NCBI GenBank assembly: GCA_947364965.1
Contig: CANAUU010000015.1
Location: 1 to 14,476, forward strand
DNA: 14,476 nt
From: an uncultured Candidatus Saccharibacteria bacterium
GTDB taxonomy: Bacteria; Patescibacteriota; Saccharimonadia; Saccharimonadales; Saccharimonadaceae
Direction: 5' to 3'
Part shown: positions 1 through 10,498 of the stretch, one piece after another
Position numbering within the stretch: position 1 is the first letter of the stretch
Layout: every line of letters starts with the position of its first letter
Notes under the pieces: model-generated
The model's database searches: none
Told to the model about the DNA's origin: nothing
The model's input: the letters and a program-made list of their open reading frames with translations, nothing else
Position numbers and translations under genes: made by a program

Positions 1-267
1 GATTTCGAGTTTTTTCTCGAAGCCCTTGGTGACGCCCTGAACGGCATTGTTAAGCAATGCACGTTGAAGACCATGCCAGGCACGAGATTTTGGTTCGTCA
101 TCGCTGCGAGTGACGACAATCTGGTTGTCTTCGACGGCAACTTTGACATTTTCCTGAAGCGGAACGATGAGTTGACCCTTCGGGCCTGCGACAGTAATAT
201 CCTTGTCGCCGACCGTGATTGTCACTCCCGCCGGAATTGCGATGGGTTGTTTTCCGATACGACTCAT
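1..267 (-). CDS. rplF: 50S ribosomal protein L6, N-terminal part (runs off window)
   Basis: The translation begins MSRIGKQPIAIPAGV and continues through a KGQL segment and a WHGLQRALLNNAVQGV segment, the typical N-terminal domain of L6, which binds 23S rRNA near the sarcin-ricin loop. Only the first 89 codons are inside the window. The ATG at 265-267 is preceded by a modest AAGGG Shine-Dalgarno at about 273-278. In most bacteria rplF directly follows rpsH. Here the two are about 1.6 kb apart with a terminator and an oppositely oriented gene between them, and rplF has its own promoter at 298-326. Identification is confident; the C-terminal half cannot be assessed. Confidence 0.95.
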   Translation of the reverse strand, partial: MSRIGKQPIAIPAGVTITVGDKDITVAGPKGQLIVPLQENVKVAVEDNQIVVTRSDDEPKSRAWHGLQRALLNNAVQGVTKGFEKKLEI

Positions 268-297: not shown

Positions 298-326
298 ATT
301 TTAGCATAGATTAGGGAGAAAAACAA
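298..326 (-). promoter_or_regulatory. Sigma70-type promoter for rplF
   Basis: On the minus strand a -35 TTGTTT (321-326) is followed by a 17-base spacer and a -10 TAAAAT (298-303), with TGC directly before the -10. The predicted transcript starts near 290, leaving a leader of about 23 bases before the rplF ATG. It supports independent transcription of the distal spc genes. Confidence 0.65.
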
Positions 327-376: not shown

Positions 377-405
377 TTGACTTTTCTGATGATGTGTGCT
401 ATAAT
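377..405 (+). promoter_or_regulatory. Strong extended -10 promoter for the alpha-CTD-like gene
   Basis: TTGACT (377-382), a 17-base spacer and TATAAT (400-405), with TGC directly before the -10. This is near consensus for a housekeeping sigma factor. Transcription would start near 412, giving a leader of about 58 bases. A roughly 43-base stretch including this promoter is nearly repeated at 10162-10204. Confidence 0.75.
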
Positions 406-453: not shown

Positions 454-463
454 AAAGGAGGAG
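454..463 (+). promoter_or_regulatory. Very strong ribosome binding site fixing a TTG start
   Basis: AAAGGAGGAG lies seven bases before TTG at 471-473. It is the best Shine-Dalgarno match in the window together with the one at 10337-10342, and it makes TTG the natural start although it is not ATG. Confidence 0.75.
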
Positions 464-470
464 AATTATT

Positions 471-1709
471 TTGGAAATCAACTTGTTCCCCGAGGAGATG
501 AAAGGGCTGAACCTTGCGACATTCAGCGAGCGAATCGTGACGGTGGCCTTCGGGCTGACGGATGAGATTCGGCTGAAGGGCAAGGAGGCCGTGTTCGCGC
601 AGTTCCCGTGCCCGGAGCAGATGGCGAAGAATGCCGAGAAGACTTTGGACGAGATGTATGAAGTATGCGCTTATGCCTTGCGGAGGGTGTTCGGCGACCT
701 GGGCCCGGAGAATGACGAGCGAGTGCTCTCGGCTCGGAGCCGAACCTTGGATTCGTGTTTTCGGCAGGCGTTGAGCCTGTTGTCCGGTAAGGTGTTGGGC
801 GAGTCGGGAGGTATCTATCGCCGAGCGTTAATCGGAGATAGTGTTCCATGGAAGTGCGACTCGGGCGCGATGGCTGACGGCGTGAAGCTGGATGTGGCTG
901 AGCTGGGAACGCGAGTGGAACAGCTGATGAGCGATGTGCGATTCTATGATCAAAAGCGCGACGAAGCATTGGCGGAGATTCGCGCCCTGCTCACGGAGAT
1001 TAAGGCGCAGGATAACTTGCCGAAACTGCCTGATGGTACTGACGCCCTGGAAGCCCGAAAAGTTGATGCCCTGGGGTCGATTACGCAGATTCATTGGCCG
1101 TATCGTAGCCAGCAGATTCTGTGGAATGCGGGAATGAAGTCTCTGACTGATGCGGCGCAGTACTTTGGTGATTTCTGGAACTTTGCTCAGAAGGAAAAGA
1201 CCATGACGCTCTGGGAGTGGGCTGTGATTGTTGCTATTTTGCGGCGAGAAGGGGTACTGCCAGAGGCAGAACACAAGGCGTGGCTGGAATCCGAGGTCAC
1301 GTGTTTGATGTTGGGGACGCGGACGAAAAATTCTTTACATCGAGCCAAGATTGTCAATATTCAGGACTTGATGTCGTTTTTTGCGGAAGGTCCGGACGCT
1401 GGATGGGAGAAAATGCAACGTGTCAGAGGAGCTGGTTCTTGCTCGATTCGAGAGATGGTTGAAACTTTGTGCGACTATGAAATCGTGATTCCGGACGAGC
1501 TTTGCTTTCCGACATTGATGAGCGGAGTGTTGGCGCTGGATTTTGACCAGATGATGATGGTGCGACTGAAAAAATATCAGATTATGACAGTTGGTGAGCT
1601 GCTGGTTGCTTGTCAGGACGAGAATCGGTTCACTGGGTTGCGCTATGTTGACCAGGATTTGTATAAACGGGCAATGATACAGCTCAAGACCTACGGATTC
1701 ATAGAATAA
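471..1709 (+). CDS. RNA polymerase alpha-CTD-like/HhH-repeat protein inserted antisense in the spc operon
   Basis: A 412-residue soluble protein, initiated at TTG behind a very strong Shine-Dalgarno. No signal peptide or membrane segment is seen. Residues about 140-180 are charged and helical, possibly a short coiled coil. The C-terminal half resembles repeated alpha-CTD (RNA_pol_A_CTD) units. The best is at about 277-337: LGTRTKNSLHRAKI, then IQDL, VRGAG and IREMVETL, matching the family pattern of LSxRxxNxL, a second helix, an RxxGxxS turn and a closing helix. A second is at about 355-411 (MVRLKKYQIMTVGELL). A third, weaker unit is at about 203-260 (RSQQILWNAGMKSLTDA). Alpha-CTD domains bind DNA or transcription factors, so a transcription- or nucleic-acid-linked role is inferred. 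The gene lies opposite to the ribosomal genes between rpsH and rplF. No specific family name is assigned. Confidence 0.75.
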   Translation: MEINLFPEEMKGLNLATFSERIVTVAFGLTDEIRLKGKEAVFAQFPCPEQMAKNAEKTLDEMYEVCAYALRRVFGDLGPENDERVLSARSRTLDSCFRQALSLLSGKVLGESGGIYRRALIGDSVPWKCDSGAMADGVKLDVAELGTRVEQLMSDVRFYDQKRDEALAEIRALLTEIKAQDNLPKLPDGTDALEARKVDALGSITQIHWPYRSQQILWNAGMKSLTDAAQYFGDFWNFAQKEKTMTLWEWAVIVAILRREGVLPEAEHKAWLESEVTCLMLGTRTKNSLHRAKIVNIQDLMSFFAEGPDAGWEKMQRVRGAGSCSIREMVETLCDYEIVIPDELCFPTLMSGVLALDFDQMMMVRLKKYQIMTVGELLVACQDENRFTGLRYVDQDLYKRAMIQLKTYGFIE

Positions 1710-1809: not shown

Positions 1810-1841
1810 AGAAAATCCCCTTCTTTCGAAGGGGATTTTCT
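1810..1841 (-). terminator. Hairpin terminator ending the ribosomal operon after rpsH
   Basis: A perfect 14-bp stem (1810-1823 with 1828-1841) closes a 4-base loop, 16 bases beyond the rpsH stop on the minus strand. The stem foot is A/T-rich on both sides, so it could stop transcription from either direction. Its position makes it the end of the main ribosomal transcript, separating rpsH from rplF. Confidence 0.75.
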
Positions 1842-1856
1842 GTTTTCAACAAAGTT

Positions 1857-2258
1857 TTAGTAAACTTTCACTAAAATTTCGCCGCCGAGGTGTTGCTTTT
1901 TGGCTTCGCGACCGGTCATGATGCCTTTGGAGGTAGAGATGAGCACGGCGCCGCGGCCAGATTTGACGACTGGGATTTCGGTGGCGCCAGCGTAAACGCG
2001 GCGGCCAGGTTTCGAAACTTTGGTAATCTCGGTGATTTTGGTGTTCTCGCCATCTTTGTTGATGATGACATGAAGCACACCGCGAGGTTTGCCATCTTCG
2101 ACTTCGTAGCTGTCGATGTAGCCAGCGTTCACGAGGCCGTCGGTGACAGCAACTTTGAGCTTGCTCGTTGGGACGCGAATCTCGGTTTTGCCAACCATGA
2201 TGGCGTTGCGGATGCGGGTGATAAGATCGGCGATTTGATCAGTTGATTGTAATGACAT
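1857..2258 (-). CDS. rpsH: 30S ribosomal protein S8
   Basis: 133 residues, the usual S8 length. It has the N-terminal DLITRIRNA segment and the conserved C-terminal segment STSKGIMTGREAKKQHLGGE, which contacts the 16S rRNA central domain. S8 is an early assembly protein of the 30S platform and in enterobacteria the autogenous repressor of the spc operon. ATG at 2256-2258 has AGGAGA six bases upstream. It lies 18 bases after rpsN, the widest gap within this operon, and is the last gene before the hairpin at 1810-1841. The gene that normally follows, rplF, has been separated from it. Confidence 0.97.
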   Translation of the reverse strand: MSLQSTDQIADLITRIRNAIMVGKTEIRVPTSKLKVAVTDGLVNAGYIDSYEVEDGKPRGVLHVIINKDGENTKITEITKVSKPGRRVYAGATEIPVVKSGRGAVLISTSKGIMTGREAKKQHLGGEILVKVY

Positions 2259-10165: not shown

Positions 10166-10194
10166 TTGACTTTTTTGATGATGTGTGCTATAAT
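10166..10194 (+). promoter_or_regulatory. Second copy of the strong promoter cassette
   Basis: TTGACT (10166-10171), 17 bases and TATAAT (10189-10194), with TGC before the -10. The surrounding 43 bases match 373-415 with about four differences, including an almost identical spacer. Transcription would start near 10201. The leader to the small ORF at 10352 is about 150 bases; I see no known riboswitch or RNA gene in it. Confidence 0.7.
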
Positions 10195-10351: not shown

Positions 10352-10498
10352 ATGTGTAAACGGAGGCAGGATTTGTTGGACCGGTTGTTCAAGGGGTTTA
10401 TTCTGGCCGCTTCGGCGGGAATGATCGCCTGGGCGATTCTGTCCTGGGCAACGGTTAGGATTTCGCGCCACGCGTGCGACGGTTGTTGTACCGATTGA
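10352..10498 (+). CDS. 48-codon single-span membrane peptide
   Basis: ATG at 10352 follows AGGAGG (10337-10342) with nine bases between. The peptide starts MCKRRQDLLDRLFKG, has one hydrophobic stretch (about residues 16-35, FILAASAGMIAWAILSWATV) and ends with RISRHACDGCCTD, a cysteine-rich tail, then TGA. The positive N-terminus suggests the N-in orientation, which would place the cysteines outside the cytoplasm. It has a strong promoter, a good ribosome binding site and a following hairpin, all signs of a real gene. I recognise no family; a small toxin, regulator or envelope peptide are all possible. Confidence 0.55.
   Translation: MCKRRQDLLDRLFKGFILAASAGMIAWAILSWATVRISRHACDGCCTD

Follow-up and report, generated by a model that had tools for sequence, protein, structure and literature searches.

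The alpha subunit of RNA polymerase uses its C-terminal domain (alpha-CTD) to contact both regulators and upstream promoter DNA; in E. coli, the DNA-contact residues of this domain are R265, N268, G296, K298, S299, and E302. Alpha-CTDs also occur without an RNA polymerase alpha body, in proteins that combine PF03118 with sigma-70 region 4 (PF04545). Such fusions were rejected as a new finding because they are widespread in databases; 5112 database proteins matched one of the fusions described below, and 117 of 120 among the matches listed contained both domains. Insertion hotspots between conserved core genes, tRNA-flanked islands for example, are a further class of known system. The spc operon is usually regarded as a block whose gene order is fixed.

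The gene studied here, ORFX, and the site that holds it resemble these systems in part. Like the RNA polymerase alpha CTD, the second of three ORFX units scores above the Pfam cut-off, in an alignment that spans almost the entire domain; unlike it, ORFX has three units in tandem and no alpha N-terminal domain that we could find, and the second unit carries a 7-residue insertion and several changed DNA-contact positions. ORFX shares with the sigma-70 region 4 proteins, one of which lies in the same gap in genome G196, an alpha-CTD without the RNA polymerase alpha body, but it has a different N-terminal part and no sigma region 4. Like other core-gene hotspots, the rpsH-rplF site has fixed flanks and variable cargo, but here both flanks belong to a single ribosomal operon, and a promoter of the second gene apparently insulates them. 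Oral TM7 prophages and pangenomes have been described (PMC7739484), and the arginine deiminase system is among the core functions of one species (PMC9040727); the available portions of these papers do not mention the rpsH-rplF site. Searches for literature on the spc operon or on insertions in ribosomal protein operons of Saccharibacteria found none, in a body of text mostly without subscription papers, where absence is not proof of novelty. Among the titles and abstract beginnings listed in a wider literature search, nothing concerned the rpsH-rplF site or the ORFX protein.

Results

ORFX is a real gene antisense to the ribosomal operon

The DNA analyzed, referred to as the window, is the entire contig C15 (14,476 bases) of an 893-kb Candidatus Saccharibacteria genome in 101 contigs (G000). 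Its ribosomal protein genes lie on the minus strand; NCBIfam models named S8 (at 1860-2258), S14, L5, S3, and L3, the L6 identity of rplF was taken from an NCBIfam-named relative in genome G013, and the remaining ribosomal names were assigned from sequence and gene order. Six ORFs lie between rpsC and rpsH (S8; 1857..2258, minus strand), which is the last gene in the upstream half of a split operon. The rplF gene (L6; 1..267, minus strand) is truncated by the contig end, and in G000 it is divided between window positions 1-267 and C86:3606-3890. Between rpsH and rplF, and antisense to them, is ORFX (471..1709, plus strand), which was called as an ORF and supported by Pfam and by family relatives, and which encodes 412 amino acids from a TTG start. 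It is preceded by a Shine-Dalgarno sequence, AAAGGAGGAG (454..463, plus strand), and by an extended -10 promoter, TTGACT-N17-TATAAT with TG before the -10 element (377..405, plus strand), that has 11 of 12 consensus matches. The TTGAC element and a TAnAAT -10 element are kept in all six genomic members of the family. The first-pass annotation of this DNA had described a gene with these signals on the opposite strand between rpsH and rplF, and in these respects it was correct. Its claim of a terminator was borne out in part. A hairpin immediately behind ORFX (1725-1750) has a poor T-run and is absent from the list produced by a terminator scan, but a two-way terminator-like hairpin between the convergent ORFX and rpsH genes (1817..1834) was listed on both strands. 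As the scan found 5 terminator-like sites in the window versus 2.8 expected, the evidence for termination is weak.

Five intact relatives of ORFX are present in other assemblies, with pairwise identities of 31-41% along nearly the full length, which establishes that ORFX is coding, and its database cluster represents 18 sequences and 117 contigs, which makes an assembly artefact very unlikely. A contig break inside rplF at one end of the window is the one feature that might favor a chance ORF or misassembly, a reading that the conserved relatives refute and to which we assign essentially no probability.

The ORFX promoter is of a class common in the genus. Near-consensus promoters (TTGAC-N17-19-TATAAT) occur at 44 places in G000, compared with 1 in a reversed control. 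Several of the 44 carry TGTGCTATAAT and then a similar stretch like GGAAGTATAGG. The strict ORFX-type form was present 34 times, spread over 30 loci, in 596 kb from the loci of ORFX-free genomes and 6 times in 35 kb from those of carriers (ORFX's own promoters included). Because the strict form is also found in ORFX-free genomes, we set aside an ORFX-specific promoter regulon; a private regulon is unsupported, yet such a promoter makes good expression of ORFX likely. One near copy of the ORFX promoter lies between two minus-strand genes (window 10166-10194, plus strand), and a possible 48-residue peptide follows it (ATG 10352, stop 10496-10498, plus strand). A conserved hairpin in the ORFX leader, an idea that came from the leader alignment, was rejected, as folding z-scores from mononucleotide shuffles were near 0 in three of six leaders and below -2 in only one of six. 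A scan of the window for tandem repeats, tRNAs, and Rfam families revealed nothing relevant.

Alpha-CTD-like units of the ORFX protein

The alpha-CTD assignment made in the first-pass annotation was confirmed by Pfam, as PF03118 (RNA_pol_A_CTD) matched ORFX residues 267-333 with 26.0 bits against a cut-off of 23.8. Seven of eight family members matched this model at E≤1 (best 2.1e-11). When a profile of the eight members was compared with solved structures, the matches were to RNA polymerase alpha subunits (best E 2.4e-7, at the second unit, U2), with nothing else below E 0.09; the single ORFX sequence had no relevant match among solved structures.

Units were cut from the family alignment and compared by hhalign with the CTDs of 31 distinct RpoA sequences from the genus. 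U2 (residues 266-340; 1266..1490, plus strand), the only unit to pass the curated PF03118 cut-off and a clear alpha-CTD by Pfam, structure profile, and hhalign, matched the RpoA CTD with a P value of 6e-7 over 53 columns. U3 (residues 348-412; 1512..1706, plus strand) matched with a P value of 4.8e-5 over 31 columns, a score reached in none of 60 column shuffles. For U1 (residues 203-265; 1077..1265, plus strand), P was only 0.024 and 1 of 60 shuffles reached the real score, the exception among six comparisons. U1 matched U3 (P 4.6e-5, 57 columns) and U2 (P 1.8e-4) with scores that again no shuffle of 60 attained. In the same test, six N-terminal segments of the family had no match. These results support three alpha-CTD-like units, at the upper end of the two or three first proposed, with U2 identified by Pfam, U3 by the RpoA CTD, and U1, which is weak, by its similarity to the other two. 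Each unit would be expected to adopt a helix-hairpin-helix fold.

Family members begin with a conserved N-terminal part, which is followed by a variable middle and the three units. Conservation is concentrated in the first 75 residues, U1, and U3 (43-45% mean pairwise identity), and U2 is the least conserved unit (28%) though it is the recognizable alpha-CTD. In U2, an R265-like arginine and a G296-like hairpin glycine are kept in six of six genomic members, and a K298-like lysine in one of six (E. coli numbering); the database relatives P0002 and P0008 are also without the R265-like arginine in that alignment. Given the changed contact residues and the low conservation of U2, its DNA binding may be weakened. 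As first annotated, ORFX has no recognizable RNA polymerase alpha N-terminal domain, since Pfam listed no such family at E≤10, and NCBIfam rpoA models gave at most 19.3 bits against cut-offs of at least 227.8 (17.6 versus 227.8 for the full-length model). The families listed for the window protein and for the eight members did not include Sigma70_r4.

The proposal that ORFX is a detached piece of RpoA was not supported. An rpoA gene with its own CTD is intact on contig C39 of the same genome, and we therefore rejected an origin by rpoA fission. U2 of the window protein scored 16.3 bits with a profile of accessory alpha-CTDs versus 8.0 bits with the genus RpoA CTD; because the profiles are not equally diverse, this is only a hint.

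Distribution and divergence of ORFX

A search of 5.8 billion protein sequences, in which each query scored the approximately 8,000 candidates that shared most words with it, found three clusters with the single sequence and seven with the profile, for eight different clusters in all. In a survey of 174 genomes of the genus, 25 had some profile match and six had a full-length match (G000, G013, G024, G065, G195, and G196); the matches in the other 19 were partial, mostly to the alpha-CTD region or to positions ~115-204. Among 294 genomes drawn from the order, the window's own genome gave the only full-length match. A single-sequence scan of named genomes found no relative, and an alignment scan found three, all in records of uncultured Candidatus Saccharibacteria. 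The window protein had no match in phage and plasmid records, no match was confirmed in IMG/VR viral contigs, and neither the window protein nor the G195 member matched PADLOC or PHROGs.

In a tree of rpsH plus rplF with 91 rows, in which the G000 row rests on the truncated rplF, the six carriers all group within a single clade of 12 (support 96/91). Two pairs joined in the rpsH+rplF tree, G000 with G195 and G013 with G024, are separated in the ORFX tree, and ORFX identities are flat at 31-41% compared with rpsH+rplF identities of 80-90% in the same genomes. Tree conflict and flat identities together would fit either divergent alleles exchanged between species or old duplicates followed by losses.

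We also examined gene order between rpsH and rplF in the relatives. ORFX lies in this gap, opposite to the ribosomal strand, in five of six carriers (G000, G013, G065, G195, and G196); in G024, it is on a different contig outside the gap, next to putative dus and Fic-like genes. ORFX is alone in the G000 gap and is accompanied in G065 by a 377-residue protein without a Pfam match and a 135-residue ORF, in G013 and G195 by an arginine deiminase operon, with a Fic gene as well in G013, and in G196 by a MerR-type regulator and a protein that combines sigma region 4 with two alpha-CTD stretches. The MerR-type regulator (L079 7558-7890) scored 52.5 bits with its best NCBIfam model, NmlR, for which the cut-off is 175. 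In G000, G065, and G196, ORFX and rplF are divergent neighbors separated by 194-242 nt.

The rpsH-rplF junction is an insertion hotspot in the genus

With the window excluded, rpsH and rplF lie on the same contig in 103 pairs from 102 genomes of the genus. The gap is 1-55 kb in 85 pairs, 541-908 nt in three, at most 200 nt in 14, and rearranged in one. The neighboring control stretch, rpsC-rpsH, spanned 1979-2507 nt in all 137 pairs, which came from 136 genomes including the window's own; four genomes have these two genes on different contigs. Outside the genus, 92 of the 95 pairs, from 94 genomes, had an rpsH-rplF gap no longer than 300 nt; the gap was wider in G264 (760 nt), G252 (3.4 kb), and G276 (4.7 kb). 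The gap table covers rplF of 149 of 158 genomes; it omits the partial rows G169 C51, G182, and G184 and the truncated rplF of G000, and 33 genomes with the genes on different contigs are uncounted. The first-pass annotation was thus right that the ribosomal operon is truly split at rpsH-rplF, with 85 of 103 gaps at least 1 kb long versus a constant rpsC-rpsH stretch. Because wide gaps occur genus-wide, including in many genomes without ORFX, the split belongs to the genus, perhaps with its near relatives, and not to ORFX. On contig C6 of G016, the order is inverted, as rplF precedes rpsH by ~72 kb with both genes on one strand; this suggests that the junction was rearranged there as well.

The loci read comprised 93 of the 103 pairs (L086-L178), all except G016 and nine gaps of 19-55 kb. 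With the window, these made 94 loci; both gene-finding steps succeeded for 91, which entered the promoter count and the tree; the three dropped at gene finding included the tight locus of G150. A mechanical call of gap ORFs of at least 100 residues in the 94 loci gave 309 in the direction of the ribosomal genes and 55 against it. Recurrent clusters encode a secreted-looking protein without a Pfam match (20 genomes), a Wzz-AAA chain-length protein (16), CpsB/CapC (16), an LCP-family protein (12), and a sugar transferase (10); the arginine deiminase operon, which in G195 includes ornithine carbamoyltransferase, is cargo in four genomes. ORFX, with five genomes, is the largest always-antisense cluster among the 45 clusters listed. 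A Pfam survey of 104 of 131 cluster representatives, reported as the best 25 families per batch, revealed no integration machinery among the families listed. Some representatives carry rpoB/rpoC, SecY, or tRNA-synthetase domains, and part of the variation in gap size is therefore due to rearrangement, not insertion.

rplF has its own promoter in most loci of the genus

An extended -10 element, TGCTAAAAT (298..306, minus strand; pattern TGnTAnnAT), precedes rplF in the window. The pattern occurs just before rplF in 87 of 91 genus loci, compared with 4.3% for mononucleotide shuffles, and the median distance from its end to the rplF start codon is 29 nt. Among 20 outgroup loci, chosen by hand from the 95 pairs as the nearest genera plus ten others, it was present in one, G276, which itself has the 4.7-kb gap; outgroup locus L216 was scored from one reading because the start motif was missing in another. 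A hairpin followed by Ts lies after rpsH in 63 of 91 loci by a simple rule applied without a shuffled control.

Promoter and hotspot are associated but not strictly linked. Of 13 tight loci read, those of G075, G122, and G021 have no strict rplF promoter pattern, and G252, outside the genus, has a 3.4-kb gap yet no pattern. The other ten tight loci already have the pattern, which fits a history in which the rplF promoter would have been gained first and insertions would have followed. As rplF has its own promoter, the site may be harmless for inserts.

Discussion

A model that accommodates these observations is that, in one Saccharibacteria genus, an insertion hotspot arose between rpsH and rplF. 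The downstream half of the spc operon, which begins with rplF, would be driven by its own promoter, and the upstream half would often be closed by a terminator-like hairpin; inserts would thus leave the essential genes connected to transcription, and for these reasons the hotspot is probably tolerated. We think it probable that ORFX is accessory cargo of this hotspot, most likely an accessory transcription factor that would bind DNA, or RNA polymerase at promoters, with nearby promoters, its own included, as the first candidate targets. A role at promoters is suggested by the contacts of alpha-CTDs with promoter DNA and regulators and by the company of sigma region 4, to which five of seven other accessory alpha-CTD proteins that we examined are fused (L079 6126-7250, L067 913-1719, L012 1465-2496, L015 679-1698, and L070 1024-1689); those of G133 and G072 are not. 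Three of the fusions were compared with defence models, and all three (L079, L067, and L070) also match parts of MzaA and PglW.

More specific or different roles for ORFX have to be weighed against this reading. In line with the ribosomal tuning proposed in the first-pass annotation, the protein might specifically tune the rplF half of the split operon from a shared divergent promoter region, as its alpha-CTD-like units and its divergent placement next to rplF in G000, G065, and G196 would allow. Direct control of rplF is plausible in those three genomes, but it does not suit the other three: the divergent neighbor is the ornithine carbamoyltransferase/arginine deiminase operon in G195 and the Fic gene in G013, and ORFX is elsewhere in G024. 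Moreover, the promoter before rplF is of the same kind whether or not a genome carries ORFX, and many genomes of the genus have the split without the protein; these results weaken the idea, and we regard this role as unlikely. Loss of most of the alpha-CTD signature from U1 and U3 and variation at several U2 DNA-contact positions would be expected if the helix-hairpin-helix folds had been reused for contacts with proteins or RNA and not with promoter DNA, but retention of the R265-like arginine and the hairpin glycine in every genomic member leads us to regard such reuse as rather unlikely.

It is also conceivable that ORFX acts as a decoy, mimicking the tail of RNA polymerase alpha and capturing phage or rival proteins that attack or hijack the alpha-CTD. 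A near-consensus promoter, patchy presence in a variable island, divergence far stronger than that of rpsH and rplF, and a conflicting tree are all compatible with this idea. However, neither PADLOC nor PHROGs matched the two members searched, the viral, phage, and plasmid records yielded no confirmed relative of the window protein, and promoters of the ORFX class are common in the genus, so that we consider a decoy quite improbable. Still more elements are joined in a scenario that we find doubtful, in which a promoter gained upstream of rplF made the middle of the spc operon a genus-wide cargo dock, where one clade installed a free-standing triple alpha-CTD protein that steers RNA polymerase, or factors that bind the alpha tail, at the dock promoters. 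If this scenario were true, an exchangeable mimic of the polymerase tail would couple ribosomal and cargo transcription.

The accessory transcription factor that we favor retains much of the first-pass annotation, whose gene, repeats, split operon, and antisense orientation stood and whose detachment from RpoA lost support with the intact rpoA gene. ORFX adds a rare protein of alpha-CTD-like repeats without a recognized alpha or sigma part, but the larger finding is the rpsH-rplF site rather than ORFX. Most measured genomes of one genus carry capsule, surface, and metabolic genes at a single opened junction of the spc operon, in association with a separate promoter for rplF, providing a testable case of how an essential operon of reduced symbiont genomes comes to serve as a docking site for accessory genes.
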